The notes beneath the pieces are model-generated. The model did not search any database, was not told the origin of the DNA, and was given only the letters and a program-made list of their open reading frames with translations. Both the position numbers and the translations under genes were made by a program. Below are positions 3,201 to 23,720 of a DNA stretch of 27,744 bases, in pieces (the first letter of the stretch is position 1; the number at the start of each line of letters is the position of its first letter). Source of the DNA: a virus; IMG/VR virus record IMGVR_UViG_3300031823_000021, positions 1-27,744 of that record; one strand, 5' to 3'.

Positions 3201-3260
3201 CGCACTGCCCTCCTTTTTGCAGCAGTGCTTGCGTTTACTCTCACAACCGCAGGTGCCGCA

Positions 3261-3497
3261 ATGGTGAAGACGCGCGCCGGCGAACTTACCGAGTTCAATA
3301 CGCTGCTGCGGCGCGCCGCCTATTTGCGGAAGATCGACGGCGACAAGCGCGACGCCGAGATAATCATCGACGATTTTATTCACCTTCTGGAACTGCCGTC
3401 GCTGCTGCCGCTAACGGAAACCTTGCGCGGGATCGTTCAGCGCCTGGCGGTCAAAGTCGGAGCCATAGAAAACGACCCGACAGCGAGCGCGCTGTGA
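3261..3497 (+). CDS. Hypothetical protein
   Basis: The frame extends upstream to an ATG at 3174, but that would overlap the start and ribosome site of the reverse gene, so the ATG at 3261 is preferred (78 residues). A weak AGGTG precedes it by about 6 bases. The protein is helical, with segments DFIHLLELPSLLPLTETLRG and VQRLAVKVGAIEN. No family was recognised. Its stop overlaps the next gene's GTG (GTGA), so the lipoprotein gene that follows is probably co-translated. The longer form would begin with a hydrophobic signal-like stretch (ALLFAAVLAFTLTTAGA), so the alternative start deserves attention. Confidence 0.55.
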   Translation: MVKTRAGELTEFNTLLRRAAYLRKIDGDKRDAEIIIDDFIHLLELPSLLPLTETLRGIVQRLAVKVGAIENDPTASAL

Positions 3498-7080: not shown

Positions 7081-7869
7081 ACACCGACCAAAATCTGCAC
7101 GCGGTGCGGTGAAGAAAAGCCGGCCACACGCGAATTCTTCTACCGGGACCGCGGTCAACGAGCGGGCCTGTCCTCACAGTGCAAGCGGTGCGTTTCCAAC
7201 ACGGAACGCACCCGCCGCGTGCGCAATGCCAAGGCGATCGCCGCTAAGCGGAAGGCGTATAACCAAGCGCACGCCGAGCAAATAAAAGCCTATGGTCGTG
7301 AGTACAGGCAGCGAAATCGCGAAGCCAACCGGCTCCGAATGCGGGCTTATCGCAAGGCAAAACCGGAGATCGTCGCCAAGCACGAGCGAGCCCGGAAGAA
7401 CGTTACCGAACGTCGTGGGCAACAGAAGCGGTACTACTCCGAGAACCGCGACCGTCTGCGCGCTCAACAGGCCGAATACCGCGCCGCGAATCGAGAGCGG
7501 CTCCTGGCCGCTCGGCGAGCGAAGCGTGAGATCGAAAAGCACGACCCGAAATTCAAGGTCGCGAAGGCGATATCCGGTAGCCTGCTGCAGGCGTTGCGGC
7601 ACAAGAAAAACGGCTCAATGTGGGAAACGCTCGTCGGGTATGACCGCGAGCAGCTGGTCCAGCACATCGAGCGTCAGTTCAGGCGCGGCATGTCCTGGGC
7701 CAACTTCGGAACCAAATGGCACATCGACCATATCCGGCCGGTGTCGTCTTTCGCCTTCGCATCGGCCGATGACCCGGAGGTCACGGCCTGCTGGGCGCTC
7801 ACCAATCTGCGGCCACTTTGGAAGCTCGACAATCTCTCGAAGCACGCCAGGCGGACGCACCTGATCTGA
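7066..7869 (+). CDS. Free-standing HNH endonuclease, homing type
   Basis: Two hundred and sixty-seven residues. The N-terminus has a four-cysteine zinc module, C11-x2-C14 (CTRCG) and C39-x2-C42 (CKRC). A long, very basic helical middle follows (residues 45-160, rich in R, K, Q and N with recurring Y-R-x-x-N-R-E patterns), likely to wrap DNA. The C-terminal nuclease shows WHIDHIRP (H219, D221, H222), N247 in LTNLRPLW and N256 in KLDNLSK. This layout is known from phage mobile HNH endonucleases. It lies between terL and portal, two essential genes that are often adjacent, as expected of a homing gene. No Shine-Dalgarno is visible and the start is in a hairpin. Confidence 0.9.
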   Translation: MGDALTPTKICTRCGEEKPATREFFYRDRGQRAGLSSQCKRCVSNTERTRRVRNAKAIAAKRKAYNQAHAEQIKAYGREYRQRNREANRLRMRAYRKAKPEIVAKHERARKNVTERRGQQKRYYSENRDRLRAQQAEYRAANRERLLAARRAKREIEKHDPKFKVAKAISGSLLQALRHKKNGSMWETLVGYDREQLVQHIERQFRRGMSWANFGTKWHIDHIRPVSSFAFASADDPEVTACWALTNLRPLWKLDNLSKHARRTHLI

Positions 7870-10944: not shown

Positions 10945-10965
10945 ATCCCGACCGAGAGGCGGGAT
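10945..10965 (+). promoter_or_regulatory. GNRA-capped hairpin upstream of capsid
   Basis: ATCCCG/CGGGAT arms (10945-10950, 10960-10965), one unpaired A, then CC-GAGA-GG: an 8-bp stem with one bulge and a GAGA tetraloop. It precedes the repeated leader hairpin of the capsid gene by about 36 bases. No T-run follows, so it is not a terminator. Confidence 0.55.
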
Positions 10966-11001
10966 GCCCTGAAGACTGCCGCCTGGGCAACGGCCCCCGC
11001 C

Positions 11002-11041
11002 GCGCTGTGAAGCGCCGCATTCCCACTGACGGAGTAACCCG
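11002..11041 (+). promoter_or_regulatory. Repeated GNRA leader element, copy 1 (capsid)
   Basis: Stem GCGCT/AGCGC with GTGA loop (11002-11015), then CGC, ATTCCC, and the ribosome site GGAG (11031-11034). The start codon is 26 bases after the stem. Same arrangement as at 18658, 21239 and 23172. Confidence 0.7.
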
Positions 11042-12472
11042 ATGCCAAAGGTCGCTGACCTGCTGAAGCAGCGCGGGGTCGCCTTCGATGCGTTCAAGGC
11101 ACTCGCCGAGAAAGACATCCTGACCGCCGAGGAACAGGCGGATTACACCACCCGCCGCGACGAGGTCAAAAACCTCGACAATCAGATCGATCGCGCCAGG
11201 GAAGCGCAGGAGCTCGCCGCGCGCGATGCGCGCCCGGTCGGTGGGCAGGCCCGCGTCCCGGCAGCGCCCGAAAAAGACCCGTATCTGAGCCTCGAGGCGG
11301 CGCAGGCCCGCGGTCTGACGACCCACAAGGGCCTGATCGTCGGCGGCATGATGCGCATGGTCGGCCTCGCTGCCGAGCGGCACGCGAAACCGATCGAGGT
11401 CGCAACCGAACTCTATGGCGCGGATCACCCGATCGTCCGCGCCCTCGGCGTCGGCACTGGCCCCTCGGGCGGCTTCATCGTCCCTCCCGACTACATGAAC
11501 GAGATCATTGAACTGCTGCGACCGCTCGCAGTGGTTCGCGGTTCCGGCCCGCGCACGATCCCGATGCCCAGGGGCACGATGCGGCTACCCGGTCAGGCGT
11601 CGGCAGCGACTGCCAGCTATGGCGCGGAAAACACCGCGATCCCGCAGACGCAGCAAGTGCTCCGCTCGATCGTCGCGACGTACAAAAAGCTCACTGCATT
11701 GGTTCCTGTTTCCAATGACATGATGAGATATTCCGACCCGGCCGTCGATGCCTTCGTCCGTGATGACCTCGTAAAGGTTGTGGCGCTCAGGGAGGACCTG
11801 GCATTTATCCTCGGCGACGGCACTCAGGACACGCCCCGCGGCTGGCTGAGCTTCGCCAATGGCTGGGTTGTCGCCGGCGGCGGCACTGCCGGCGTCTTCT
11901 CGACCACTGCGAATTCGACGCTCGCGGTGAACGGCACCGATCCGGCGAATTCCACCGGCGGCAACTTCATCACGTCAAACGAGAGCTACACGTTGTCGAC
12001 GGTGGCGACGGAGCTCGGCGGTGCAGTGAACCGCCTCGACACCGCGAACGTGCCCGACACCAAACGCGTGTGGTTCATGAACCCGCGCAGTTGGAACTAC
12101 CTCAACAACGTGCAGAACTCGCTCGGCGTCTACGTCTATCGCGACGAATTGAGCAAGGGCACGCTGCTCGGGTATCCGACCAAGAAGACCACGCAGATCG
12201 GCACGAATTACTTCGACGCAAGCGGTGCTCACACCGATTGCTCGTTCGTGTTCCTCGCCGAGATGGACGAGACGATGTTGCTCGATTCGATGCAGCTGGA
12301 ACTGGCTGTGTCGCGCGAGGGCACATACGTCGACTCGGGCGGGAACACGGTGTCCGCGTTCCAGTCCGATCAAACCATCATTCGCGCGATCGCCGAGCAC
12401 GACTTCCAGATGCGCCACGACCAGGCGGTCGCGGTCATTCAGGCGGTCCGCTGGGCGCCGGCGATTTCCTAA
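11042..12472 (+). CDS. HK97-family major capsid protein
   Basis: Four hundred and seventy-six residues. The first ~115 form the scaffolding delta domain: a charged coiled coil (AEEQADYTTRRDEVKNLDNQ) and a linker, expected to be removed by the S78 protease. From about residue 135 the mature capsid fold begins: GPSGGFIVPPDYMNEIIELL, the E-loop strand block around GTMRLPGQ, TALVPVSNDMMRYSDP, and ILGDGTQDTPRGWL. The C-terminal P/A-domain segments (VWFMNPRSWNYLNN, then TIIRAIAEHDFQMRH) are typical. It forms the icosahedral shell. Ribosome site GGAG is 7 bases before the ATG, inside the repeated leader. A terminator follows immediately. Confidence 0.97.
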   Translation: MPKVADLLKQRGVAFDAFKALAEKDILTAEEQADYTTRRDEVKNLDNQIDRAREAQELAARDARPVGGQARVPAAPEKDPYLSLEAAQARGLTTHKGLIVGGMMRMVGLAAERHAKPIEVATELYGADHPIVRALGVGTGPSGGFIVPPDYMNEIIELLRPLAVVRGSGPRTIPMPRGTMRLPGQASAATASYGAENTAIPQTQQVLRSIVATYKKLTALVPVSNDMMRYSDPAVDAFVRDDLVKVVALREDLAFILGDGTQDTPRGWLSFANGWVVAGGGTAGVFSTTANSTLAVNGTDPANSTGGNFITSNESYTLSTVATELGGAVNRLDTANVPDTKRVWFMNPRSWNYLNNVQNSLGVYVYRDELSKGTLLGYPTKKTTQIGTNYFDASGAHTDCSFVFLAEMDETMLLDSMQLELAVSREGTYVDSGGNTVSAFQSDQTIIRAIAEHDFQMRHDQAVAVIQAVRWAPAIS

Positions 12473-12489
12473 CCGCACTGAGTAACGAA

Positions 12490-12520
12490 GGCTCAGCCTA
12501 AACCGCTGGGCCTTTTCTCT
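12490..12520 (+). terminator. Intrinsic terminator after capsid gene
   Basis: GGCTCAGC (12490-12497) pairs with GCTGGGCC (12505-12512), 8 bp with one G-T, 7-base loop, then TTTTCTCT. It lies 17 bases after the capsid stop. Confidence 0.8.
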
Positions 12521-12557
12521 CACTGCAATGGTCTTCTCTATTCAAGGAAACCCTCTC

Positions 12558-13043
12558 ATGACCGACATGGTTGTGCAAAAGAACATCGGCTCTCTCATCA
12601 CTGTCCGCGAAGGGTCGGCGAGCCTTTCCAACACCGCCGGCGCCGGCAGCAACAACACCACGAAAGCCGGGATTTCGATCGATCGCCAGGGCCTCGGCAG
12701 CCCCGGCACGCCGCCCGAGTCGGCGGTCGCTAGCGTGCTCTACGCTGCGACCCTGGCTTCCGGTTCGACGCTGGCAATCCAGGTCATCGTCAGCCACGCG
12801 CCGGACAATTCGACCTGGACGACGTACACGTCGAATTCAAGCACGTCGATCGTGGTCGCGACCGGACCGTCGGGCGGTGGTGCGGTGGCCGGGCAGCTGA
12901 ACCTGTCGGTGAACCTGTCGTCGGCGCAGCGCTATATCCGGGTCGATCACGTCCCGAACCTGAGCCGCGCCGGCACCGACACCTCGATCACTCAGGCTGT
13001 CGCGGTGCTCGCCGGCTTCGACCGTCTGGCGTCGCCGACCTGA
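12558..13043 (+). CDS. Head decoration-like beta-rich protein
   Basis: ATG 12558 is chosen over an in-frame ATG at 12528 because AAGGAA (12542-12547) lies 10 bases before it; the product is 161 residues. It is Ser/Thr/Gly/Ala-rich with alternating strands (ASVLYAATLASGSTLAIQVI, then SHAPDNSTWTTYTS, then VAGQLNLSVNLSSAQRYIRV), consistent with a jelly-roll or Ig-like fold. Position right after the capsid gene is where decoration proteins are usually found. Function is thus inferred from place and composition. Its stop overlaps the methyltransferase ATG (TGATG). Confidence 0.65.
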   Translation: MTDMVVQKNIGSLITVREGSASLSNTAGAGSNNTTKAGISIDRQGLGSPGTPPESAVASVLYAATLASGSTLAIQVIVSHAPDNSTWTTYTSNSSTSIVVATGPSGGGAVAGQLNLSVNLSSAQRYIRVDHVPNLSRAGTDTSITQAVAVLAGFDRLASPT

Positions 13044-13591
13044 TGCTGATCAGGCTCGCGGTCGACTTTGGCCCTTGCACGATCGACGAAGACCTCGTCG
13101 GTCTGCAGGGCCTCGTCACATGCCTGGGCCGGCCTCGAGTGATCGAGGTCGGTTCCTGGCTCGGCCGCACCGCGCTGGCGATGGTCGAGGCGGGTGCCGA
13201 GTTCGTGCATTGCGTCGACACGTGGGACGGCACCAACGACCCGGAAGACGAGACGTTCGCGCATGGGGCAAAGCACGGCCATGCTGCGCTGCTGAACGCC
13301 TTCCGCGTCAACGTCGCGGCGCATCTTGGCCAGACGATCTATCACTATATCGGCACGTCCAGCTATTGGGCCGACCGATGGACCGTGCCCGCCGACCTCG
13401 TCTTCATCGACGCCGAGCACAGCTACGAGGCAGCGCTCGCGGACATCACGCTGTGGACGCCGCACGTGCGCCCCGGCGGAATTTTGTGCGGCCATGACTT
13501 TTGCGAGGCGTGGCCGGGCGTGAAGCGGGCGGTCGAAGAAACCGGGCCTTTCAACATCGTCGGGAATTCAGTGTGGTGGCGCCAGTTATGA
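13043..13591 (+). CDS. Class I SAM-dependent methyltransferase
   Basis: One hundred and eighty-two residues. Motif I is VIEVGSWLGRTALAM (33-47), the SAM-binding Gly loop. The acidic residue after strand 2 is D59 in HCVDTW. LVFIDAEHSYEAALADI (119-135) and GGILCGHDF (145-153) identify the Methyltransf_24 type, which includes sugar and small-molecule O-methyltransferases. No DNA-methylase motif (NPPY or DPPY) is present. It is not a usual virion gene. It overlaps the decoration-like gene by TGATG and the radical SAM gene by ATGA, so the three are coupled. A role in modifying a glycan or the radical SAM product is inferred. Confidence 0.88.
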   Translation: MLIRLAVDFGPCTIDEDLVGLQGLVTCLGRPRVIEVGSWLGRTALAMVEAGAEFVHCVDTWDGTNDPEDETFAHGAKHGHAALLNAFRVNVAAHLGQTIYHYIGTSSYWADRWTVPADLVFIDAEHSYEAALADITLWTPHVRPGGILCGHDFCEAWPGVKRAVEETGPFNIVGNSVWWRQL

Positions 13592-14784
13592 CCGATGGGA
13601 TCTACCGGCATCCGCCCGGGCGCTTGTCGCGCTGGGGGGTTGTCGACGTCGGCCTGAAGTGCATGCACTCATGCCAGTTCTGCTATTACGCAGGCGGCAT
13701 CGACGACCACGCCGACCCCTTTCACGGGATGCGGCATGCGAAGTTCCTGCCGACCGAGCACCTGCTCGAGCTCGCCCGTTCATTGAAGCAGAACGGCTTC
13801 GTCGGCTTCGATGTCACCGGCGGCGAGCCTTGCTTGCATCCGGGGATCGTCGAGCTCGCCGCCGAGGCAAAGCGCCTCGGCCTCGCCATGCGCGTCATCA
13901 CGCTCGGCCAGTACCTGAACCGGCCGATGAAGCATTCGTCGCCGGACCGGCCGCTGATCGAAGCGCTGCTCGACGCCGGCGTCGCTGACTTTCTCTTGTC
14001 GGTTCACGCCGTCGAAGACGCCGATTTCAGGCGCATCACCGGCGAGTCCTGGTCAAAGCTGCGCGATGCGATGGTCAGTCTCGACCTGAGCGATTTCGAC
14101 TACTGCACCAACACCACCGTCCACGAGGGCAACTTCCGGCAGCTGCCGGAGATCGCCGACGAGATCATTCGGCATCGGGTCTATGCCTCGAACCTGATCG
14201 TGATGAACGCCTATTATGCCTGGTCGAAACCGGGCGGCGGCGCCGGCGACGTCCAGGGCCACTACGGCCAGATCCGGCCTTATCTGATCGATGCCCGGGG
14301 TCGCCTCGAAGCGGCCGGGATCGCGGTCAATATCCGATATGCGCCGCTGTGCACCGTGAAGGGCGCCGAGCGCAACCTGGTCGGCATCACCGGCGTGCGG
14401 CACGACCCGCACGAATGGATGAATGAGATCGATCATACCTCGCCGGGACCGGCCGAAGAGATGGGCCGGAAAATCGGCATCCGCGATTTCGACACCGGCA
14501 CGCCGCTGATCCCCGTCAGCGAGCCGGGCATCGTCGCGCGCCGCGCCGGCAAGGTCTACCCGGAGAAGTGCCACTCCTGCGCCGCCGCCTTCGTCTGCGA
14601 CGGCATCGATCCGCGATACCTGGCTGAGCGCGGCGACGCCGAGCTCGAGCCTTACACCGAGTTTCGGGGCGATCTGCTCGACCGAGAGCGGCTCGCTTAT
14701 CTGCCCGCCTTCATCTGCAAAACCGCGCCGTTCGCCGACGCGCGTGGCGCAGTGCGGGCGGCTTTTGGGAGGTCAAATCGGTAA
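13588..14784 (+). CDS. Radical SAM enzyme with auxiliary cysteine cluster
   Basis: Start ATG 13588 (ATGA with the methyltransferase stop), 398 residues; the frame extends further upstream without need. The radical SAM motif is C25-x3-C29-x2-C32 (KCMHSCQFCYY), with GGEP at 78-81 in FDVTGGEPCLHPG. The C-terminal part has C255 (PLCTVKG) and C328-x2-C331-x5-C337 (KCHSCAAAFVCDG), like a SPASM/twitch auxiliary iron-sulfur cluster. Such enzymes use a 5'-deoxyadenosyl radical to modify peptides, sugars or nucleosides. The substrate cannot be read from the sequence. The glycosyltransferase gene follows its stop without a gap. Confidence 0.93.
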   Translation: MTDGIYRHPPGRLSRWGVVDVGLKCMHSCQFCYYAGGIDDHADPFHGMRHAKFLPTEHLLELARSLKQNGFVGFDVTGGEPCLHPGIVELAAEAKRLGLAMRVITLGQYLNRPMKHSSPDRPLIEALLDAGVADFLLSVHAVEDADFRRITGESWSKLRDAMVSLDLSDFDYCTNTTVHEGNFRQLPEIADEIIRHRVYASNLIVMNAYYAWSKPGGGAGDVQGHYGQIRPYLIDARGRLEAAGIAVNIRYAPLCTVKGAERNLVGITGVRHDPHEWMNEIDHTSPGPAEEMGRKIGIRDFDTGTPLIPVSEPGIVARRAGKVYPEKCHSCAAAFVCDGIDPRYLAERGDAELEPYTEFRGDLLDRERLAYLPAFICKTAPFADARGAVRAAFGRSNR

Positions 14785-16221
14785 ATGTGGCTCCTACCTT
14801 CGCGCGGCCGGCCGGGCAATCTTGCCCGGTTTTTTAATGCCTATCGCCAGACCGGCGGATCGACGCCGGGCATGGTGATCGTCGATACCGACGACTACCT
14901 CGCGCATCGACCAGCCTATAGCGAGCTCGCGCTCCCGATGGGCTGGTTGCTTAAGATCACCAGCGGCGTCACCCAAGGCGAAAAGATCGCCGAGGTCTGG
15001 CATCAGGTCAAAGACTGCGCCTGGCTCGGCCTTATCGGCGACGACTGCGTGCCCGAGACGATGGGCTGGGATCGCAGGCTGACGGAAGCTCTCGACGGCA
15101 CCAACTTCGTCAGCTGCGACGATGGCTGGCAGGCGCCGAAACGGGTCGGCAATTGCTGGGTCATGTCCGGCGACCTGGTGCGCGCCGTCGGCTGGATCTT
15201 CCCGCCCGGGCTGCAGCACCTTTACGTCGACGACGTATGGGAAGAGATCGGCCACGAGGCCGGTTGCTGGCGCGTCCTAATGGACGTCAAGGTCGCCCAC
15301 CGTCACGTGCTGAAGGGCGAGGCCGCGCCCGACGATACGCACCGGGCCGTCTATGGCAGTGACGGCAGCGATCCGCAGGCCGGCATGTGGCCGCTCGATG
15401 CCGCCGCCTATACCGGGTGGCAGAAATCGGGAAAGGCCGACACGATCGCCGCGGTGCGTGCGCTCAACCCGGGGCGCAACGCAGCCGATGCTGACGAAGA
15501 GCAAAAGGTGCAGGCCCGGATGGCGCGCGCCAAATCGCGCTTCGTGCTGATCGCCTCGCCCGTTCACCGCGGCTTCGAAGAGCCGTTTGTTACCTCGATC
15601 ATCCAGACGGTGATCCTGCTCGAGCGCCTCGGCGTCCGGCAGGATTGTCAGTGGGTGAAGGGCGGCAGCAACCTTCCGAAAAGCCGCAATCAATTGGCGG
15701 CTGGCTTCCTCGCCGGCGACTGGACCGACCTCATTTTCATCGACACCGATATGGGGTGGGACCCGAACGCGGTGGTGCGCCTCCTGGCATCGGATAAGGA
15801 TGTCATCGCCGCCGTCGGCCGGCGCAAATGCGAGGAGGTCAGCTGGTGCTGCAACCTCCCGGCGGGCCCTCTTCGGCAAGACGACATGGGTGCCCTCGAG
15901 GTCCCGCGCGCCGGCACCGGGCTGATGAAGATCACCCGCGATGCGCTGGAGCAGATCATCGCCGCCAGGCCCGACCTGAAGGGCCCGGGCGACGACAACA
16001 TGAGCCCCGGCGAGCGCGCCAATTATCACCACTTTTTCCGCTTCGGCGATGACGACAGCGGCGAGGATTATGTGTTCTGCGACCTCTTCCGCTCGGTTGG
16101 CGGCGAGGTCTGGATCGATCCCGAAATCTGGCTCTCGCATACCGGCGAGAAGGCCTATGCCGGCAAGTTCGCCGACGCGCTGAAGCCGGTCGTCACCGTC
16201 ATTCAGGACAAGGCCGCTTAA
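14785..16221 (+). CDS. Two-domain GT-A glycosyltransferase-like protein
   Basis: Four hundred and seventy-eight residues; ATG directly follows the upstream TAA, with GGAGG 12 bases before. The N-terminal domain (1-215) begins LPSRGRPGNLARFF and has LIGDDCVPETMGWD with D86-D87 as a DxD-like site. The C-terminal domain (252-478) has KSRNQLA, then LIFIDTDMGWDPNAVVRLL with D320-x-D322, and GEDYVFCDLFRSVGGEVWIDP, the usual acceptor-side motif of GT2-like enzymes. It is therefore likely a fusion of two glycosyl transfer domains, making either two successive transfers or one catalytic and one regulatory domain. Phage enzymes of this sort glycosylate virion proteins, DNA or host surface. A terminator hairpin lies in codons 10-17. 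Its stop shares four bases with the reverse gene. Confidence 0.87.
   Translation: MWLLPSRGRPGNLARFFNAYRQTGGSTPGMVIVDTDDYLAHRPAYSELALPMGWLLKITSGVTQGEKIAEVWHQVKDCAWLGLIGDDCVPETMGWDRRLTEALDGTNFVSCDDGWQAPKRVGNCWVMSGDLVRAVGWIFPPGLQHLYVDDVWEEIGHEAGCWRVLMDVKVAHRHVLKGEAAPDDTHRAVYGSDGSDPQAGMWPLDAAAYTGWQKSGKADTIAAVRALNPGRNAADADEEQKVQARMARAKSRFVLIASPVHRGFEEPFVTSIIQTVILLERLGVRQDCQWVKGGSNLPKSRNQLAAGFLAGDWTDLIFIDTDMGWDPNAVVRLLASDKDVIAAVGRRKCEEVSWCCNLPAGPLRQDDMGALEVPRAGTGLMKITRDALEQIIAARPDLKGPGDDNMSPGERANYHHFFRFGDDDSGEDYVFCDLFRSVGGEVWIDPEIWLSHTGEKAYAGKFADALKPVVTVIQDKAA
14812..14835 (+). terminator. Intrinsic terminator inside the glycosyltransferase 5' end
   Basis: CCGGGCAA (14812-14819) and TTGCCCGG (14822-14829) are exact complements (7 bp with an ATCT loop), directly followed by six T. 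It begins 27 bases after the start codon, within the codons for RPGNLARFF. Confidence 0.75.
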
Positions 16222-16400
16222 GCCGCTTTCGCCGGCGCTTTCGGCCGTTCGCCCCAATTTCGCAGCTTGGCAATGTTGCGAACGTTCCTTCCGCTTACGC
16301 CGTGCTTCGCGCCGACCTGATCCACGGTCAGATGGGGCGACTGCCAATCTTCACGAATTGCCTCGGCCGTCTCGAAATCGACGACCCGCTTGCCCTTCAT
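16218..16400 (-). CDS. Small HTH protein, reverse strand
   Basis: Sixty residues from minus-strand ATG 16400, preceded by GGAGGT about 8 bases upstream, a strong site that settles the start. The peptide starts MKGKRVVDFETAEAIREDW and has LTVDQVGAKHGVSGRNVRNI, a clear helix-turn-helix of the homeodomain/resolvase type, then a basic tail. It could be a small repressor or a terminase- or transposase-derived DNA-binding protein. Its stop overlaps the glycosyltransferase stop (shared TTAA). It diverges from the gene at 16452 with 51 bases between, where both promoters would have to lie. Confidence 0.75.
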   Translation of the reverse strand: MKGKRVVDFETAEAIREDWQSPHLTVDQVGAKHGVSGRNVRNIAKLRNWGERPKAPAKAA

Positions 16401-16451
16401 CGCTGATGACCTCCGCGCCTGCGAGGCCCCGCTTTTACCAAAGGTCGAGAC

Positions 16452-16640
16452 GTGAAACTCGTGGAATTTACGCGCGACATGGCCCCGCACGTCGCCGGCG
16501 AGAGCCGCCTCGTGCCCGACACGCTGGCCGACACGCTCGCGGCCGAGGGCGCCGTCATCAACGTCCGCCCCTGGCCTGACCACCAGCCCGATCCGAAACG
16601 CTACCTGCCGCGCGTCAAGCGGCCTGAGAGGACGCGATGA
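16452..16640 (+). CDS. 62-residue hypothetical protein
   Basis: Starts at GTG 16452 with AAGG 7 bases upstream. Sequence MKLVEFTRDMAPHVAGESR, then a helix PDTLADTLAAEGAV and a basic end PKRYLPRVKRPERTR. Short proteins of this kind are frequent in head-tail regions of related phages, but I do not know a function. The stop overlaps the next ATG (ATGA). Confidence 0.6.
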   Translation: MKLVEFTRDMAPHVAGESRLVPDTLADTLAAEGAVINVRPWPDHQPDPKRYLPRVKRPERTR

Positions 16641-17038
16641 CCCAGCTGCTCCCGGCGACCGCGATCACCGCTCCTGTCACCGCGCAAGTCGGCCCAACCG
16701 TCAAATTCAACGCCCGGCCGGACACCCTCGCGATCCAGGCGAACCTTATCGGCGGATCGAGCGGCAGCAGCATCGCGCTCTACGTGCAAACCTCCCTCGA
16801 TAAGGGCGCGAACTGGATCGATATCGCCTCGCTTGCTTTCACCACGGCGGCGACGCGCGTTGTGGTGAACCTGTCCTCGCGCACGCCGGTTACGACGCCA
16901 CTTGTCGCGACCGATGGCTCGCTGGCCACCGGACAGAAAGACGGCATTCTCGGCGACCAATTCCGCACCAAGCTGACCACGACCGGCACCTATAGCGGCA
17001 CGACGATCGCCGTCGATATCAGCGGCAATCAGGTCTAA
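16637..17038 (+). CDS. Beta-rich hypothetical virion protein
   Basis: One hundred and thirty-three residues, coupled to the upstream gene by ATGA. Alternating strands (VKFNARPDTLAIQANLIGG, then SSIALYVQTSLDKGANWIDI, TRVVVNLSSRTP, TGTYSGTTIAVDISGNQV) resemble the composition and probable sandwich fold of the decoration-like protein at 12558, including the pattern of a strand, then S-x-D-x-G/N-x-x-W. It may be a second decoration or stabilising protein; this is inference. Confidence 0.6.
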   Translation: MTQLLPATAITAPVTAQVGPTVKFNARPDTLAIQANLIGGSSGSSIALYVQTSLDKGANWIDIASLAFTTAATRVVVNLSSRTPVTTPLVATDGSLATGQKDGILGDQFRTKLTTTGTYSGTTIAVDISGNQV

Positions 17039-17044
17039 CGGGAG

Positions 17045-17058
17045 CCCGGCCGGCCGGG
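17045..17058 (+). promoter_or_regulatory. 14-bp perfect palindrome overlapping a ribosome site
   Basis: CCCGGCCGGCCGGG reads the same on both strands. Its 3' arm runs into GGGAG, the only Shine-Dalgarno of the gene starting at 17066, so a hairpin could hide it. Confidence 0.4.
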
Positions 17059-17065
17059 AGCGAGC

Positions 17066-17335
17066 ATGGCCGATTTTGACACCAAGCTGTCGGTCAGCGG
17101 CGTCAATTCGCCCTTCGGTATATCCACCGACGTCTCGCTTCGCGATGTGATCGCCGCGGAGAGCGGCGACGCCGCGGAATGCCTCTGGGGCGATGGAACA
17201 TTTCGGGCGCCGACCGGCGGCGGTGGCGGCAGTTCGGTGCAGATCGGCGGGTATACGATTTTTGTCGATACCGACGGCAGCTTAAAGATCAAGGCGCCCG
17301 ACGGTTCGGTCACGCCTCTGGTGATCAAGACATGA
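17066..17335 (+). CDS. Hypothetical fibre-associated protein
   Basis: Eighty-nine residues; GGGAG lies 5 to 7 bases before the ATG. It begins MADFDTKLSVSGVNSPFGIS, has ECLWGDGTFRAPTGGGGG, and ends with short strands (QIGGYTIFVDTDGSLKIKA). The W-G-D-G-T-F-R-A-P segment followed by polyglycine is of the kind found at the ends of phage fibre proteins. It probably belongs with the fibre-like protein that follows 13 bases downstream. Confidence 0.6.
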   Translation: MADFDTKLSVSGVNSPFGISTDVSLRDVIAAESGDAAECLWGDGTFRAPTGGGGGSSVQIGGYTIFVDTDGSLKIKAPDGSVTPLVIKT

Positions 17336-17348
17336 GGGATCGGGGTCA

Positions 17349-18008
17349 ATGAGACATTCTTTCGGCATTGTCGCCTGTCCGCGTGGACATAGCGCACGCC
17401 GGCGCGCCGCCTGGCGCTGGGCACTATGGGCGATGGCCATCGTCTTCACGCCGGTTCTGGCGATGGGCGCTTACCAGCCCGCCTTCGTCCCGACCACATT
17501 TCTGAGCAATTCGGCGAAGACCATCGTCGCCTCCGTCACTGGCAGCATCACTTCCGGCCATCTGGCAACTTTTGCCGATAACGTCGGCACCATTCAGGAC
17601 GGCGGCGCCGCCCCGACGGGCACGGTATCGAGCGTCACCTGCGGGACCGGTCTTTCAGGCGGTACCTTCACGACCTCGGGAACCTGTTCGCTGGCCAACA
17701 TTGTGCCCACGATCTTCACCGGGTCGAGTCCCCTCACTCTCGGGTCGACCAACAATCTCGAAGAGATCATCGAGATGGGGACGCCGGCGGCACTCACCAT
17801 AAACCTTCCAGCCTCGCCGGCCGATGGGACCTATCAGTGCGTCAAAGACGGGCTGAAGAATTTCGCCACCGACAACGCCACGATCAAGACTACCGACAGC
17901 AGCACCATCGACAAGGTCGCCGGCGCGACCGGGTATGTGATGAACCAAAACGGGCAGCAGAACTGCTTCTATTACAGTGCCTCGAAGACGAACTGGTACA
18001 TCTTCTAA
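17349..18008 (+). CDS. Fibre-like protein with N-terminal hydrophobic signal
   Basis: Two hundred and nineteen residues. The N-terminus is basic (PRGHSARRRAAWRWALW), then AMAIVFTPVLAMGA, a plausible Sec signal or anchor. The next part, SITSGHLATFADNVGTIQDG followed by TGTVSSVTCGTGLSGGTF, is a repeat pattern well known from phage tail fibres and head fibres. The C-terminal third (ALTINLPASPADGTYQCV, then NCFYYSASKTNWYIF) is beta-rich. Four cysteines follow the signal region, as would suit disulfides outside the cytoplasm. A signal on a virion-type fibre is odd and is noted as a finding. Confidence 0.65.
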   Translation: MRHSFGIVACPRGHSARRRAAWRWALWAMAIVFTPVLAMGAYQPAFVPTTFLSNSAKTIVASVTGSITSGHLATFADNVGTIQDGGAAPTGTVSSVTCGTGLSGGTFTTSGTCSLANIVPTIFTGSSPLTLGSTNNLEEIIEMGTPAALTINLPASPADGTYQCVKDGLKNFATDNATIKTTDSSTIDKVAGATGYVMNQNGQQNCFYYSASKTNWYIF

Positions 18009-18012
18009 GCCG

Positions 18013-18573
18013 ATGTCCCGTCTCCTAGCAGCGGCAGCCCTGTGCGCGTTTTTCTATTCGAGCGCAGGCTGGGCCGGGCATGCCGAGATCGCCCCGGCGG
18101 TTGCATCGGGCGCGACGCTGCCCGATACGCTCAACCAGGAATTCCATGTCTCGACCGCGCAGCTGGGCGCGGCATCGACGACAACACTCGGCGTTGTTAC
18201 CGGCCTTTCCCAGGCACTGACCGCCGGGAAGACCTATCTCTGCGAAGCGCATCTTTCCGTTTCGACCGGGTCGAGTTCGGCTGGCGCCAAAGCCGGACTG
18301 GTCGCCACCAACAGCCTTTCCGCGACATCGATCAGCTATACGGCACTGGTCTACTCGGGAACCACGCTCTCGGCCAATACGACCGCGACGGCCCTCGCCG
18401 CAACCTCGGGCGGCATCGGCGCCACCGCGAGCGTCACTGACATCTTCATCACCGGGGCGATTGTCGTGAACGCGGCCGGGACGATCAACGTAGAGGGCGC
18501 TCAGAACGTCAGCAGCAGCACCGGCACGAATTTCCTGATCAATTCGACATTCAGCTGCGTGCGGGTGAACTGA
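18013..18573 (+). CDS. Secreted beta-rich protein
   Basis: The frame is open upstream, but ATG 18013 gives a perfect signal peptide MSRLLAAAALCAFFYSSAGWA, with probable cleavage after the AGWA region; the product is 186 residues. The mature part is Ser/Thr/Ala-rich beta sequence (TTTLGVVTGLSQALTAGKTY, then SVTDIFITGAIVVNAAGTIN) with two cysteines, CEAH and SCVRVN, that could form one disulfide. It looks like a jelly-roll or C1q-like module. It is 4 bases after the previous stop and probably works with that protein. Confidence 0.6.
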   Translation: MSRLLAAAALCAFFYSSAGWAGHAEIAPAVASGATLPDTLNQEFHVSTAQLGAASTTTLGVVTGLSQALTAGKTYLCEAHLSVSTGSSSAGAKAGLVATNSLSATSISYTALVYSGTTLSANTTATALAATSGGIGATASVTDIFITGAIVVNAAGTINVEGAQNVSSSTGTNFLINSTFSCVRVN

Positions 18574-18657
18574 GGGCGCTTAAAGAACGCGGCACCGCCC
18601 GGCCCAGGCCGGCGAGCGGATCGCGCAGTAGGCCGCCGCCGCGGTCGATCCCGTGTA

Positions 18658-18698
18658 GCGCTGGGAAGCGCCGCCAGCCCCTTAGATGGAAGTGATCG
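18658..18698 (+). promoter_or_regulatory. Repeated GNRA leader element, copy 2 (connector)
   Basis: Stem GCGCT/AGCGC with GGGA loop (18658-18671), then CGCC, AGCCCC and ribosome site GGAAG (18688-18692). The start codon is 27 bases after the stem. The preceding intergenic stretch (18574-18657) holds GC-rich inverted repeats but no gene. Confidence 0.65.
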
Positions 18699-19592
18699 AT
18701 GGGCCTGCAACGCGTCACCACGCTGATCACGCCCGCGGCGACTTACGCTCTCGTTGCGCTCGAGGATGTGAAAATCGAGCTCGGCATTCCCGACACCGAC
18801 ACCTCCAAAGACGCGCTGCTGACCCGGTACATCAATGAGGTATCGGGCGCCATCTCGCGCTATTGCAACCGCTCGCCGCTAGACTTCAACGAAGCATCGT
18901 TCCCGGTCGAGCTCGTCCAGGACCTCTTTTATCCCGATCGCGACGCCTATCCCTACCAGGTCCCGGGCGGCACTAGCGCGCTGCAGCTGGCGCGCTGGCC
19001 GCTCGTGCCGACCGTCACGCTGATGACGAGCGCCGATGCGCCGAGCGGGAATGTCCTGCCCTTCGCCAGCACCAGCGGGATCGCGCAAGGCCAGCCTGTC
19101 AACGGATTGAATTTGCCGCCCTCCGCAACGGTTGCCGAGGTCAGCGCAACAAGCGTCACCCTGAATGCACCGGTCGCCCTCGATTTGCCGGCCGGGACGA
19201 AGATCAATTTCGGCATATCGATCGTTATCGTCGACCCGCCCGGCACCAGCACCGCGCTCGTCCAGAACACCGATTTCGTCGTCAATCCCGCGTTCGGGCA
19301 GCTGATCAGGCTGGATCAGTTCCAGGCCTACCCAACCCTGTGGACGCCCGTAGCGACGACTGTCGTCTACAGCGGCGGCTATAGCTCGATCCCCGACGAT
19401 GTTCAGGGGGCGGCGATGCGCTGGATCACGCAGCGCTTTAGCGATCGCGGCCGGAACCCGAACCTGCGGGCAAAAGAAGAGCCCGGCGTCGGGCGCGAAG
19501 AGTATTGGGTCGGCGGCCCGCCGATGAGCGGTGGGGTACCGGCCGAGATCGCCGAACCGCTCGATAGCTACCGGACTCCAGTGACGGCCTGA
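18699..19592 (+). CDS. Head-tail connector protein (gp6-like) with beta insert
   Basis: Two hundred and ninety-seven residues; usual gp6-like connectors are 100-200. The helical parts are typical: LEDVKIELGIPDTDTSKDAL, LLTRYINEVSGAISRYC, then near the end DDVQGAAMRWITQRFSDRG. The core strands (FVVNPAFGQLIRLD, VVYSGGYSSIP) match the family. Residues about 109-172 are extra: a strand-rich stretch with GIAQGQPVNGLNLPPSATV that resembles a stand-alone beta module. The protein docks below the portal and closes the head. It is preceded by a repeated leader element. Confidence 0.85.
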   Translation: MGLQRVTTLITPAATYALVALEDVKIELGIPDTDTSKDALLTRYINEVSGAISRYCNRSPLDFNEASFPVELVQDLFYPDRDAYPYQVPGGTSALQLARWPLVPTVTLMTSADAPSGNVLPFASTSGIAQGQPVNGLNLPPSATVAEVSATSVTLNAPVALDLPAGTKINFGISIVIVDPPGTSTALVQNTDFVVNPAFGQLIRLDQFQAYPTLWTPVATTVVYSGGYSSIPDDVQGAAMRWITQRFSDRGRNPNLRAKEEPGVGREEYWVGGPPMSGGVPAEIAEPLDSYRTPVTA

Positions 19593-19597
19593 TCGAC

Positions 19598-19780
19598 ATG
19601 GACCGCGCCGGCCACATCGCGCTCGAAGAATACGTGCACGCTGCCGAAGAGCTCTATGCGCACCTGAGCTTTGCCGATCGCCAGAACCCGCCGCGGCTCG
19701 CCTACCTGGTGCGCCAGCTGGGCGCGGCTCGGGGAGATTTCCTCGAGGCGATCAAAAGCACCGCTGCATCACCGGATTAG
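19598..19780 (+). CDS. 60-residue helical hypothetical protein
   Basis: ATG 19598 is 5 bases after the connector stop. The sequence is two amphipathic helices, GHIALEEYVHAAEELYAHL and PPRLAYLVRQLGAARGDFL. No family was recognised. It is within a tight connector-adaptor run, so a role in head-tail joining or assembly is possible but not shown. Confidence 0.6.
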   Translation: MDRAGHIALEEYVHAAEELYAHLSFADRQNPPRLAYLVRQLGAARGDFLEAIKSTAASPD

Positions 19781-19786
19781 CACCGA

Positions 19787-20236
19787 ATGCAAATCAACAT
19801 CGCAGTCGTCGGCGACCGGGCGATCGCGCTGAAATTCGGCCGCATCCCGGTCGCGATCCATGACCGGCTACTGCAAACTATCCGGCAGCTGACCCTGCGG
19901 CTTCTCGACCGAATCCACGAGGCCGAACCGAAACTGACGGGGCGCCTCGAGGCGCGGACGAAGGCCTATTTCACCGACAAGGAAAACCTGATCCGCGGCG
20001 CGATCCGGCCGGGAAGCGCGCGCGCCGACAAGCTGAAGGCGATGGCGCTCGAATTCGGCGCCCACGGCACGGCCAGCGTCAAAGCCTACACCAGGGGAAA
20101 CGACGTCGCCGTCCAGGCCTACAAGCGGCACGTCAACATCTCCGAGCATCGCTTCCTGCGCGACCCCTTCGCCGAGATGACCTCGGAAATCGAAACCGCG
20201 ATCCGCCGGGCCTTCCAGTCTGCCGCCGACGCCTGA
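19787..20236 (+). CDS. HK97 gp10-like head-tail adaptor / tail completion protein
   Basis: One hundred and forty-nine residues. It opens MQINIAVVGDRAIALKF, then RLLQTIRQLTLRLLDRIHEA, EPKLTGRLEARTKAYF, and later LEFGAHGTASVKAYTRG and HRFLRDPFAEM. The order of a long first helix, tail strands (G-x-x-x-V-K-A-Y) and a conserved R-F-L-R-D-P-F near the end matches HK97 gp10-like proteins, which link connector and tail. It lies 6 bases after the previous gene. Confidence 0.82.
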   Translation: MQINIAVVGDRAIALKFGRIPVAIHDRLLQTIRQLTLRLLDRIHEAEPKLTGRLEARTKAYFTDKENLIRGAIRPGSARADKLKAMALEFGAHGTASVKAYTRGNDVAVQAYKRHVNISEHRFLRDPFAEMTSEIETAIRRAFQSAADA

Positions 20237-20284
20237 TCCGAAAGATTTCGCGGCGATTTTCCTTTTTGCGAAAGTCCAATTTTC

Positions 20285-20944
20285 ATGCGCGAAGACGTCA
20301 TGACGGCGCTCTTCGCGCTGCTCACTGCGCCGCCCCTGGTGATGCCGTTCACAGCGACCGTTACCGCCGGCGACGTCAACGTCCACAACGTCACGCTGCC
20401 GCCAGGCGGCTCCCTGATCCTCAACATGCCCGTCACCGGCCAGGGCGTCGCCGAGGGCAGCGTCATCGCGAACCTCGACCCGGTCCAGCTGTCGCTGCCG
20501 GCGATCACGACGACGCCCGTCGCCGAGCTCACGCAGGGTTTTCAGACGACGGGGCGCCGCCTCCAGTTTTGGAGCAATGTTAAAGAACAGCCGGCGCTCT
20601 TCCTGGTCGATAGCGACGAGGAATGGCACGAGCACCCGCCGACAAAGCCGGCGATCGTCACGCTCGAAACCGAAGTCTGGCTCTATTCGAGCGCCGGCGA
20701 GAACCCCGACATCGTGCCGGCGATCGCGCTCAACGCGATGATCGAGGCGATCGACGCGCAGCTGCTGCCCAGCACCGTGACGGCCTCGGGGCAGATCCGC
20801 TTCACCATCCCGCAAACGCTGGGCGTGCTCGGCGTCATCTGGCTCGGCATCGAGGGCCGCATTCAAAAGACGCCCGGTCACATCGGCGGCCAGGGCATCG
20901 CCGTCATCCCGGTCAAGATCGTCATCACGCAGGCACAACGATGA
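20285..20944 (+). CDS. Tail terminator-like protein with beta insert
   Basis: Two hundred and nineteen residues. It begins MREDVMTALFALLTAPPLV, the usual first helix of minor-tail or tail-terminator proteins. The core resumes after about residue 87 with QTTGRRLQFWSNVKEQPALF, then VDSDEEWHEHPPTKPAIVTL and a conserved C-terminus (ALNAMIEAIDAQLLP). Residues about 21-87 are an insert of strands (TVTAGDVNVHNVTLPP, then MPVTGQGVAEGSVIANLD) similar in pattern to the insert in the connector. Proteins of this type cap the tail tube and join it to the head. The upstream 48 bases are T-rich with only a weak ribosome site (GAAAG). Confidence 0.75.
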   Translation: MREDVMTALFALLTAPPLVMPFTATVTAGDVNVHNVTLPPGGSLILNMPVTGQGVAEGSVIANLDPVQLSLPAITTTPVAELTQGFQTTGRRLQFWSNVKEQPALFLVDSDEEWHEHPPTKPAIVTLETEVWLYSSAGENPDIVPAIALNAMIEAIDAQLLPSTVTASGQIRFTIPQTLGVLGVIWLGIEGRIQKTPGHIGGQGIAVIPVKIVITQAQR

Positions 20945-21222
20945 GACTCCCGCCGCTGCCGCCAATCGATCGGTCGCGCCGCGGCGTCCTGACGATCGCC
21001 GAACCGGCCTTTCGGATCCTGCTCGGGCTCGGCCAGGAATACGAAGTGACCGGGTTCGCGCTCGACGTCCTCGGCCACCTGCAGGTCCACATCGCCGGCG
21101 GCGACATGCCGCCGATGGGCCTTTCGCCGGCACCGGTCAGCCTCGTCTGCCACGTCCAGGAAGGCCGATCTCTCGAACTGTCCTGGGCGCACGTCCCGGA
21201 GAAACGCTGGCGGCTGCCCTAA
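20941..21222 (+). CDS. Hypothetical small tail-region protein
   Basis: Ninety-three residues from ATG 20941, overlapping the previous stop (ATGA); the frame is open further upstream in the shadow of the previous gene. Sequence MRLPPLPPIDRSRRGVLTIA, then EYEVTGFALDVLGHLQVHIA and a C-terminal strand region ending EKRWRLP. It looks like a compact beta protein. No family was recognised. It is followed 16 bases later by a leader element. Confidence 0.6.
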   Translation: MRLPPLPPIDRSRRGVLTIAEPAFRILLGLGQEYEVTGFALDVLGHLQVHIAGGDMPPMGLSPAPVSLVCHVQEGRSLELSWAHVPEKRWRLP

Positions 21223-21238
21223 ACCGCCCATACCGGCC

Positions 21239-21280
21239 GCGTCGTGAGGCGCCGCTCTTCCCCATCGATGGAGATCCCGA
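21239..21280 (+). promoter_or_regulatory. Repeated GNRA leader element, copy 3 (repeat protein)
   Basis: Stem GCGTC/GGCGC (one G-T pair) with GTGA loop (21239-21252), then CGC, CTTCCCC, and GGAG (21270-21273). The start codon is 28 bases after the stem. Confidence 0.7.
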
Positions 21281-22678
21281 ATGGCAAATCCTCTTGTCGG
21301 CACCGAGCACGTCGCCGTTCAAACGGCGGCCGGCAGCGTCGTCAGCGACACCGCCTCGAACGCGAAGGCGATCGGCCTGCTCGCCCAGGCGATCCCCGCG
21401 CGCGTCAACACACCGCTCGCGACCGCTGGCAATGGCGTGCTGTTGGCCGCGGCGCTGATCGGCAGCGTCATCACGCGGACCGGCCCCACCGGGGCCTTCA
21501 CCGATACCACGGACACGGCTGCTGCGATCATTTCAGCCCTGCCCACCGAGGCGCCGATCAACACGTCCTGGCTGCTGACGATCCGCAACACGACGCCCTA
21601 CGCGCAGACCATCGCCGGCGGCGTCGGCGTCACGCTCAATAGCGGCGGCAGCGTCATCCCGGCGAACTCGGCCGGCATGTTCCTGGTGCAATATACGGGC
21701 GCCGCGTCGATCACGCTGCAGCCGGTGCTCGTCACGCCGACCGATCTGGGGGTCATCGCGGTTTCGACGGCGATCGTCACCGCCGGCGCCGGCACCCTCA
21801 CCGCCGCGGGGATCGTGGGCGGGGTCATCAACCGCTCAGGGCCGACGGCGGCCTATAGCGACACGACCGATACCGGGCCCAACATCATCGCCGCTCTTCC
21901 CAATGCCGAGGTCGGGCAATCCTGGGAACTGTCGATCGTCAACACCGTGGCCTTCGCTCAGACCCTTGTGGCGGGCGCCGGCGTGACGCTCTCGGGTCTC
22001 TCGAGCCCGATCCCGGCAAATGCCACGGCGACTGTGCTGTGCACCTATTCGGGCGCCGGCACGGTGACTATGCAGGTCACCGCGATCAACTATAACGCCG
22101 CGAGCGGGCGCGATCCGTCTAGTGCGGTAAGCCAATTCGGCGGCGGCACCGGCACCTTTGGCCGTGCGGGCCGCATCTATCGCGAGATCGACGCCGCCGC
22201 GCCGGTCAACCCGGCCGGCACCGGCACCGACTATGTGATCTCGGTCTTCTCGCTGCCGGCATCGAGTTTCGACCTGTTGGGTCGCGGGCTGCGCGTCACC
22301 GCCAAGGGCACGCTGGGCAGCAACACCGCCAACAAGACGGTCAAGATCATCGTCAATCCCGCGACAGCGGTAGTCGGCAGCGCAGTCGGCGCCGGCGGTA
22401 TCACCGCTTGCTCGACGGGCGTCATCTCGACCAGCGGCGCCGCCGGCGGCTGGCAGGTCGAGGCCGAGATCGAAAAGTACGGCGCCAACGGTTCCAACAC
22501 GCAGCTGGTCACGCCGCACGGTGCGATCGGAGGCGGGACGCATCTCGGCGCCGGCGGCGCGCCCCAGCTGGCGACGGCCACCGAGAGCGGCGCGATTTTG
22601 ATCGCCATCACCGGAAATTGCGGCACCACCGCGACCGACATCGCCCTCTACAAGCACGACATCGACGCCTTCGACTAA
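21281..22678 (+). CDS. Virion protein with tandem beta modules
   Basis: Four hundred and sixty-five residues. Residues about 42-152 and 161-268 are two diverged copies of one module: compare SVITRTGPTGAFTDTTDTA with GVINRSGPTAAYSDTTDTG, and SWLLTIRNTTPYAQTIAGG with SWELSIVNTVAFAQTLVAG. The C-terminal domain (about 290-465) starts FGRAGRIYREIDAAAPVNP and ends ATDIALYKHDIDAFD, another beta-rich region. No enzyme motif is visible. Its leader matches those of capsid and major tail protein, and it ends at a double terminator, which suggests abundant, separately controlled expression. It may be a surface decoration, tail-tube ornament or fibre; this is inference. Confidence 0.7.
   Translation: MANPLVGTEHVAVQTAAGSVVSDTASNAKAIGLLAQAIPARVNTPLATAGNGVLLAAALIGSVITRTGPTGAFTDTTDTAAAIISALPTEAPINTSWLLTIRNTTPYAQTIAGGVGVTLNSGGSVIPANSAGMFLVQYTGAASITLQPVLVTPTDLGVIAVSTAIVTAGAGTLTAAGIVGGVINRSGPTAAYSDTTDTGPNIIAALPNAEVGQSWELSIVNTVAFAQTLVAGAGVTLSGLSSPIPANATATVLCTYSGAGTVTMQVTAINYNAASGRDPSSAVSQFGGGTGTFGRAGRIYREIDAAAPVNPAGTGTDYVISVFSLPASSFDLLGRGLRVTAKGTLGSNTANKTVKIIVNPATAVVGSAVGAGGITACSTGVISTSGAAGGWQVEAEIEKYGANGSNTQLVTPHGAIGGGTHLGAGGAPQLATATESGAILIAITGNCGTTATDIALYKHDIDAFD
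21404..21736 (+). repeat. Protein-level tandem repeat, unit 1
   Basis: Encodes residues about 42-152 of the protein at 21281; includes TRTGPTGAFTDTTDTA and LTIRNTTPYAQTIAGGVGVT. Confidence 0.7.
21761..22084 (+). repeat. Protein-level tandem repeat, unit 2
   Basis: Encodes residues about 161-268; includes NRSGPTAAYSDTTDTG and LSIVNTVAFAQTLVAGAGVT. Diverged from unit 1 but co-linear over the whole unit. Confidence 0.7.
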
Positions 22679-22684
22679 GGCACT

Positions 22685-22740
22685 GGCCGCCCTTGCAGGC
22701 GGCCGGCACCGGGCCCGCTTCGGCGGGCCCTTTCTTTTTC
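22685..22740 (+). terminator. Double hairpin intrinsic terminator
   Basis: First hairpin GGCCGCC/GGCGGCC (22685-22691, 22698-22704). Second hairpin GGGCCCGC-TTCG-GCGGGCCC (22711-22730) with an extra-stable TTCG loop, followed by TTTCTTTTTC. It is the strongest terminator in the window and lies 6 bases after the repeat-protein stop. Confidence 0.9.
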
Positions 22741-22758
22741 TCCTGAGAGGATCCGGCA

Positions 22759-23154
22759 ATGACGCAGCAGATATTCACGCACCTGCGAAGCGTGAGCTAT
22801 TCGGTCGATGGCGCGCAAGTCGTCAACGTCAACACGACACAAACCGGCACCGAAGAGCAGAACGTCGATGTCGAGATTTCGGCCAGCACCACGAACGAAC
22901 AACTGAATTTCGCGATCACGCTCGCGAACCTCAAATCAGCGATGCTCTACGCCGACAACCCGGTCGCGCTGAAGACCAACAGCACCGGATCGCCGCAGGA
23001 AACGATCACCCTTGGGCCGGGGCAGGAGATCGCCTGGCAGACGGGCGACCCTGGCTCGGCGCCGTTCGCCGGCAATGTGACGACGGTCTTCGCCACCAAT
23101 TCGAGCACGACGACGCCGGTCAACGTAAAGATCCGCGCGCTGAGCGCCCAATAA
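22759..23154 (+). CDS. Hypothetical virion protein
   Basis: One hundred and thirty-one residues; GAGAGGA lies about 8 bases before the ATG. It starts MTQQIFTHLRSVSYSVDGAQ and is beta-rich throughout (VNVNTTQTGTEEQNVDVEIS, then QLNFAITLANLKSAMLYADN, ETITLGPGQEIAWQTGD). Composition and location between two leader-controlled structural genes suggest a capsid- or tail-surface protein. No family was recognised with confidence. Confidence 0.65.
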   Translation: MTQQIFTHLRSVSYSVDGAQVVNVNTTQTGTEEQNVDVEISASTTNEQLNFAITLANLKSAMLYADNPVALKTNSTGSPQETITLGPGQEIAWQTGDPGSAPFAGNVTTVFATNSSTTTPVNVKIRALSAQ

Positions 23155-23171
23155 CCGGACCGATCCCCGCA

Positions 23172-23213
23172 GCGCCGTGAGGCGCCGCATTTCCCGCTGG
23201 ATGGAGCCTTGCG
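23172..23213 (+). promoter_or_regulatory. Repeated GNRA leader element, copy 4 (major tail protein)
   Basis: Stem GCGCC/GGCGC with GTGA loop (23172-23185), then CGC, ATTTCCC and GGAG (23203-23206). The start codon is 28 bases after the stem. Starts 17 bases after the previous stop. Confidence 0.7.
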
Positions 23214-23720
23214 ATGCCCGCTGCATCAATCACGAATTATTATGTCGGGTCCGGTGTCGTCACCTGGACACCGCTTGGCAGTTCCACTGCCCTCGATCTC
23301 GGCAACTGCCCGAAGTTCGAGTTCGATCCCAAAGTCAACACGATCAAGCACAAGTCGTCGCGCCTGGGCCGCCGGTTCACCGACGACGTGCGGATCATCG
23401 ATGGGGATCCCGAGGTCGCGATCACGCTCGACGAGTGGACGCAGGAAAACCTGGCGATGCTGCTGATCGGCAGCCAGGTCGGCAACACCGTGAACATCAT
23501 GGATCAGGCGGATCTCAGGGGTCAGTTGGTGTTCACCGGCGCGAACCTGGTGGGCCCCAAAAAGCAGATCACCCTGCCGCTCGTGGTTCTGACGCCGACC
23601 GGAAAACTCGAATTCATCAACGCCGGCAACTACGGCGAGATTGAAATCATGGGCCAGGTGCTCGGCAACCCGACCACTGGCAGCTTCGGCACGATCGTCG
23701 ACCTCGGGCCGCCGACCTAA
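23214..23720 (+). CDS. Major tail (tube) protein
   Basis: One hundred and sixty-eight residues. The opening MPAASITNYYVGSGVVTWTP, followed by SSTALDLGNCPKFEFDPKV and KHKSSRLGRRF, is the usual start of siphophage major tail proteins (Y-x-G-x-G-x-V-x-W, then L-G-N and the F-x-x-x-P strand, then H-x-S-S-x-x-G). The remainder is a beta barrel-like series (VAITLDEWTQENLAMLL, KLEFINAGNYGEIEIMG). It polymerises into hexameric rings around the tape measure to form the tail tube. Position just before the tail-assembly chaperone genes is the conserved one. Confidence 0.88.
   Translation: MPAASITNYYVGSGVVTWTPLGSSTALDLGNCPKFEFDPKVNTIKHKSSRLGRRFTDDVRIIDGDPEVAITLDEWTQENLAMLLIGSQVGNTVNIMDQADLRGQLVFTGANLVGPKKQITLPLVVLTPTGKLEFINAGNYGEIEIMGQVLGNPTTGSFGTIVDLGPPT

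Follow-up and report, generated by a model that had tools for sequence, protein, structure and literature searches.

Why should four similar hairpins stand in front of four structural genes in a stretch of viral DNA? The question is raised by a 27,744-nucleotide (nt) stretch (IMG/VR virus record IMGVR_UViG_3300031823_000021, positions 1 to 27,744; this whole stretch is called the window here), in which a GNRA hairpin precedes the genes for the major capsid protein, a head-tail connector, a repeat-containing protein and the major tail protein. An initial annotation had taken this hairpin as an RNA element marking high-output structural genes, an idea that is well supported by covariation, a stem-swap test, the spacing to the Shine-Dalgarno (SD) sequence and recurrence in other phages, although only one of two leader modules had been noticed. 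The observation is real, and it belongs to something larger. In our view, held with slightly more confidence than doubt and with the function read from sequence comparison, the leader would represent a new family of structured cis-acting mRNA leaders that raises or coordinates the translation of high-copy virion genes.

The sequences, coordinates, loops (GTGA, GGGA, GTGA, and GTGA), stem variants, and distances of 26–28 nt to the start codons were all confirmed for the four copies. Simple GNRA hairpins with a 5-bp stem are common in the window, which has 65% GC, with 11 on the plus strand and nine on the minus strand, so that the bare hairpin alone is not significant. By contrast, the extended motif GCGYYGTGARGCGCCGCNTTYCCC, a pattern derived from the same four copies that it retrieves, matched these four sites and nowhere else in the window when up to three mismatches were allowed, and it was absent from 100 shuffles. 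The CGC that follows every copy is indeed constant; it had been placed outside the hairpin, but it forms the 3' side of an outer stem, because the helix extends outward through a mismatch and 2 bp. The layout, which we call module B, is GC-N-GCGYY-GNRA-RRCGC-C-GC; it comprises an inner stem of 5 bp, one C.C or A.C mismatch (1x1), and an outer stem of 2 bp, in which copy 2 has one G-U pair. Furthermore, a covariance model trained on 25 leaders from other phages, with the window excluded and filters off, ranked the four window copies first to fourth (E values 3.7e-10, 1.1e-6, 1.7e-5, and 0.007; the next match had 0.25).

What the initial annotation had missed is a second conserved stem-loop, together with a GCCC tetranucleotide, upstream of the capsid gene (Table 1). 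A search of IMG/VR with the capsid protein yielded 80 loci, whose common order is a variable hairpin (P0), GCCC, a stem-loop with the loop CTTGGGCAA (P1 or module A), module B, (T)TCCC, GATGGAGCC, and ATG. P1 was present in 58 of the 77 related capsid loci with a start codon in reach, and a hairpin recurs at the P0 position across relatives although its sequence differs. In the relatives, a second leader is found on the same contig before a phrog_8234 gene of about 257 amino acids (aa), the product of which has no function in PHROGs and which we take as tail-tube-like from its position and size. In the window the P1 loop is restricted to the capsid leader, the other three copies consisting of module B without it; upstream of copy 4 there is a GCCC (23146–23149) but no P1. 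Conversely, six leaders (L177, L243, L255, L259, L261, and L263) pass straight from the P1 stem-loop to the SD and lack a GNRA hairpin. Module A can thus occur by itself, like module B in the window. Comparison among leaders establishes, at the level of sequence, a stem with the CTTGGGCAA loop, a mismatched GNRA-type hairpin, an SD block around GATGGAGCC, and their recurrence, as a set or as single modules, ahead of unrelated genes for capsid, tail-tube, and sheath proteins. Two variants of the interval between P1 and the capsid SD were also seen. Two GNRA-type hairpins lie in tandem in L071 (near 7243–7380) and L077 (near 9735–9810), and a terminator-like hairpin with a T-run replaces module B before the SD in the capsid leaders L030 (near 9943–10003) and L044 (near 3244–3303) and, as judged by eye, similarly in L037 (near 9943–10003), hinting at a transcriptional variant.

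That the leader folds as an RNA structure is well supported by comparative evidence. Among 22 module B sequences, seven of the eight pairs change on both sides, and the covariation score was 0.436, whereas shuffled controls gave 0.189 and slid controls no more than 0.082, with the caution that kinship among the sequences inflates such shuffle tests; one alignment (A3) was left out since MAFFT had misplaced its stems. In the P1 stem of leaders collected by homology, each of three pairs occurs as up to five standard pair types. Moreover, in an independent test that searched the whole of IMG/VR for defined P1 stems followed by GATGGAG, GCC/GGC was found in at least 120 stretches and the compensated GCG/CGC in six, while both half-swaps gave no match at all (0 and 0), and neither did a mutant of the loop core (0 matches). 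The six contigs with the compensated swap share the same leader layout, five of them including module B.

The GGGC of the P1 loop could in turn pair with the upstream GCCC as a pseudoknot or kissing interaction, a case that is good but not closed. Of 149 leaders whose loop has GGGC, 141 also have a GCCC upstream, where 69 would be expected; this GCCC is located either 3' of the P0 hairpin or, in some leaders, within the P0 loop. It lies within 25 nt in 111/117 such leaders but in only 8/33 once the loop changes, the latter coming from a separate scan for CGGC loops (Fisher P = 4e-16, uncorrected for kinship), and within one capsid family the figures are 58/60 and 2/8 (Fisher P = 7e-6, likewise uncorrected). 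In a clade with the P1 loop TTCGGCAA, the P0 loop has GCCG, and in L036 the P0 loop is TTGCCGAA, the exact reverse complement of the P1 loop. Outside the TTCGGCAA clade the fourth base of the partner is often T instead of G, and leaders with AGGC or TGGC loops retain a mismatch with the partner; the core of the putative pairing would therefore be GCC:GGC. There is an alternative candidate partner, a GCC right after the SD, which is present in 125/144 GGGC leaders and in 3/17 CGGC leaders, most of the latter belonging to one clade.

Which genes carry the leader? In total, 181 unique leaders were collected, and the proteins encoded behind 179 of them fall into 20 unrelated clusters. A few clusters are unannotated. 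Almost all of those with an identity represent proteins of the virion or of its assembly, namely seven PHROG major-head families, major tail or tail-tube families, a protease-capsid fusion, a tail sheath, a tail assembly chaperone, and a virion structural protein. One contig (L212) has three leader copies, before the capsid gene, a 507-aa gene, and the tail tube gene. Regardless of the gene, the distance from the end of module B to the SD is 11–12 nt in 113 of 177 leaders and that from the SD to the ATG is 6–9 nt in most; for some leaders the search pattern itself had prescribed GATGGAG and a gap of 10–40 nt, but the leaders found by homology carry the same SD block. As unrelated virion clusters share both leader and spacing, the leader tracks gene class and not gene family.

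The near-constant spacing, the conserved SD context, and the compact fold directly upstream point to an action on translation initiation. Lying directly 5' of the 30S landing site, the folded leader could insulate the SD from upstream sequence, offer the ribosome a fixed standby edge at the 5' side of the landing site, and possibly shield the mRNA on its 5' side; the outcome would be a strong and proportional translation of high-copy virion proteins from late polycistronic mRNA. The leader before abundant particle proteins (capsid, tail tube, and tail sheath) probably sets their production level. Several observations weigh against this reading. Neither the head-tail adaptor in the window nor the tail assembly chaperones found elsewhere belong to the virion proteins of highest copy number, and energy folding gives the window copies little support: in a 135-nt context, the pair probabilities of module B range from 0 to 0.47. 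In the predicted fold of copy 1, the SD is partly paired (AUUCC/GGAGU), which suits repression as well as enhancement, and the likeness of hairpins within a genome suits a binding factor too. These last two points lead to the main competing explanation, unlikely in our estimation, in which the leader is a tag bound by one trans-acting factor (a phage, host, or ribosomal protein) that represses or activates the late virion genes jointly and so times or balances their translation. Of 27 pairs of hairpins from the same contig, 21 agree in loop class (GNRA or GNRA+N), where 13.7 would be expected, a value reached in 13 of 2000 shuffles for the observed agreement, although the contigs are related and the window alone supplies six of the pairs. 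The fixed CTTGGGCAA loop and the conserved mismatch resemble recognition features, and the SD could be sequestered, since TCC occurs 3–14 nt ahead of GGA in 155 of 179 leaders and the GCC mentioned above follows the SD in most GGGC leaders. However, unrelated phages would have to share the factor (no search for a candidate gene was made), and autoregulation by the gene product is unlikely because the downstream proteins are unrelated. A bolder combination, which we hold to be rather doubtful, is that the leader is a horizontally exchanged RNA tag on the high-output virion genes of many unrelated phages and is read by a common factor of ribosomal, host, or phage origin, with the GGGC loop switching between the upstream GCCC and the SD-adjacent GCC; if so, a gene-class-wide RNA regulon would govern virion production.

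Other functions seem less probable than translational control. Cleavage near P0 could leave virion mRNAs with a folded, decay-resistant 5' end, an improbable explanation that would fit the serial arrangement of P0, P1, and the GNRA hairpin between genes and the need of the leader-bearing genes for abundant mRNA; nevertheless, it does not require a near-constant distance to the SD and the start codon, no cleavage site is evident, and a cut there would fall between the partners of the P0:P1 pairing. An attenuator, or an antitermination RNA of the put type, is still harder to accept. The terminator-like hairpins between P1 and the SD in the three capsid leaders described above, and those replacing P0 in a few others such as L104 and L057, speak for it, but a terminator-like P0 is rare (seen in 6 of the 151 leaders that have P0), a terminator is absent from most leaders, and the element is repeated before single genes at a fixed distance from the start codon. 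We give hardly any credence to a DNA-level element (operator or promoter) or to chance similarity: the loop TTGGGCAA is an imperfect dyad and GC-rich DNA often contains simple GNRA hairpins, but the stems vary freely and stay complementary with zero half-swaps, the strong model matches found around the capsid-anchored genes are on the coding strand ahead of start codons, and the extended motif was absent in shuffles.

At least 120 IMG/VR stretches contain the whole capsid-type leader, and the proteins encoded behind it form about 20 unrelated clusters. Rfam 15 gave no relevant match for the window, seven related loci, or leader-only stretches, including at permissive thresholds, and a blastn search of isolated phages with 12 joined leaders returned five weak matches, none of them credible. 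The best of these, in Variovorax phage V45v66, proved on inspection to be CCCTTGGGCAAGGC without the rest of the leader and was taken as chance, and the other four, shorter than this one, were judged without inspection. GTDB genomes contained 26 exact-pattern matches, many in alphaproteobacterial metagenome-assembled genomes and a few in isolates, three of the matched genomes having a second, partly weak copy nearby. When 289 genomes of one class were scanned with the model, two had strong matches, one being a known prophage and the other showing the leader layout ahead of a gene; an origin of the leader in host genes was rejected on these grounds. Short-spaced matches in Paracoccus, Falsiroseomonas, and Rubritepida genomes, first held to be chance, may be module-A-only leaders before tail-like genes. 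As the leader is rare in the genomes scanned and has no credible match in isolated phages, we infer that its carriers are mainly uncultivated phages, probably of Alphaproteobacteria. To our knowledge, no comparable leader family has been described; a literature search found no description of the element, which could have been listed unnamed in earlier RNA-motif surveys.

The T7 gene 10 leader lies upstream of the major capsid gene, has a hairpin near its 5' end, and boosts translation, and the leader described here is likewise located directly 5' of the SD of high-output genes; however, the T7 leader serves one gene in one phage group, has another sequence and fold, and is not repeated before tail genes. 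The T4 gene 32 leader, a pseudoknot 5' of the SD that exerts translational control, answers to its own gene product, whereas an autoregulatory link to one protein family is not seen here, where 20 unrelated clusters lie downstream. The put RNA of HK022, a cis-acting phage RNA of two stem-loops, acts on RNA polymerase and, unlike our leader, has no fixed distance to a start codon. The nearest described case, which is nevertheless distinct, is that of the SAS and ESAS elements of cluster K mycobacteriophages, in which a repeated conserved block, in some cases with an upstream inverted repeat, covers the SD of selected genes (PMC3203893). The SAS consensus, GGGATAGGAGCCC, is 13 bp long and stands a few nt before the start codon, and these elements precede non-structural genes only, in the right half of the genome, with inverted repeats that have no support as paired RNA (PMC3203893). 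GGAGCCC is common to this consensus and our leader (GATGGAGCCC), but it is all that the SD block shares with SAS, and the leaders studied here precede capsid, tail, and connector genes and have stems that covary without half-swaps; sequence and hosts also differ. The GCCC of SAS has no 16S partner either (PMC3203893). We regard the present leader as a new RNA family within a known kind, the structured cis-acting leader, unusual in the breadth of unrelated genes that it precedes.

Capsid and tail-tube proteins are needed in much larger amounts than the other late proteins of a phage and are often made from shared transcripts. The same leader before high-copy genes of unrelated phages makes the question of virion-protein ratios directly testable. 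It would also serve as a marker for virion genes in uncultivated phages and is a possible expression part for Alphaproteobacteria. The features of the window are listed in Table 1.

Table 1. Leader elements and associated genes in the window.
Feature	Position	Strand	Basis
P0, variable hairpin ATCCCG...CGGGAT 5' of the conserved part of the capsid leader	10945..10965	+	Minimum-energy fold prediction; relatives have a hairpin there, sequence differs
GCCC, candidate partner of the P1-loop GGGC (pseudoknot or kissing pair)	10966..10969	+	Co-occurrence with GGGC loop, lost on loop change
Module A (P1), stem GCCG/CGGC, loop CCTGGGCAA (consensus CTTGGGCAA)	10978..10994	+	Conserved in relatives; covariation; swap test
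Module B copy 1, GNRA hairpin, 5 bp + C.C mismatch + 2 bp, loop GTGA	10999..11018	+	Motif, covariation, hold-out model
SD GGAG of the capsid gene	11031..11034	+	Sequence; relatives' consensus GATGGAGCC
Major capsid protein (major head protein), HK97 fold, phrog_10, Phage_capsid	11042..12472	+	Family matches
Module B copy 2, loop GGGA, A.C mismatch	18655..18674	+	Motif, hold-out model
Head-tail adaptor/connector, phrog_442, Phage_connect_1	18699..19592	+	Family matches
Module B copy 3, loop GTGA, C.C mismatch, one G-U pair	21236..21255	+	Motif, hold-out model
465-aa protein, two ~100-aa repeats, no clear family, partial phrog_673 match	21281..22678	+	
Module B copy 4, loop GTGA, A.C mismatch	23169..23188	+	Motif, hold-out model
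Major tail protein, Ig-like domain, phrog_807	23214..23720	+	Family matches

The leader of the 465-aa protein suggests that it is probably an abundant virion protein; a single-sequence structure prediction gave an unusable model (pLDDT 35). Just 3' of its gene, at 22711–22740, there is a strong hairpin resembling an intrinsic terminator, with eight GC pairs, a TTCG loop, and a T-run. Finally, the interval between the capsid and connector genes (13043–16221) has matches to a methyltransferase (phrog_2675), a radical SAM protein (phrog_27238), and a glycosyltransferase (phrog_14945), an unusual cargo in a structural block.

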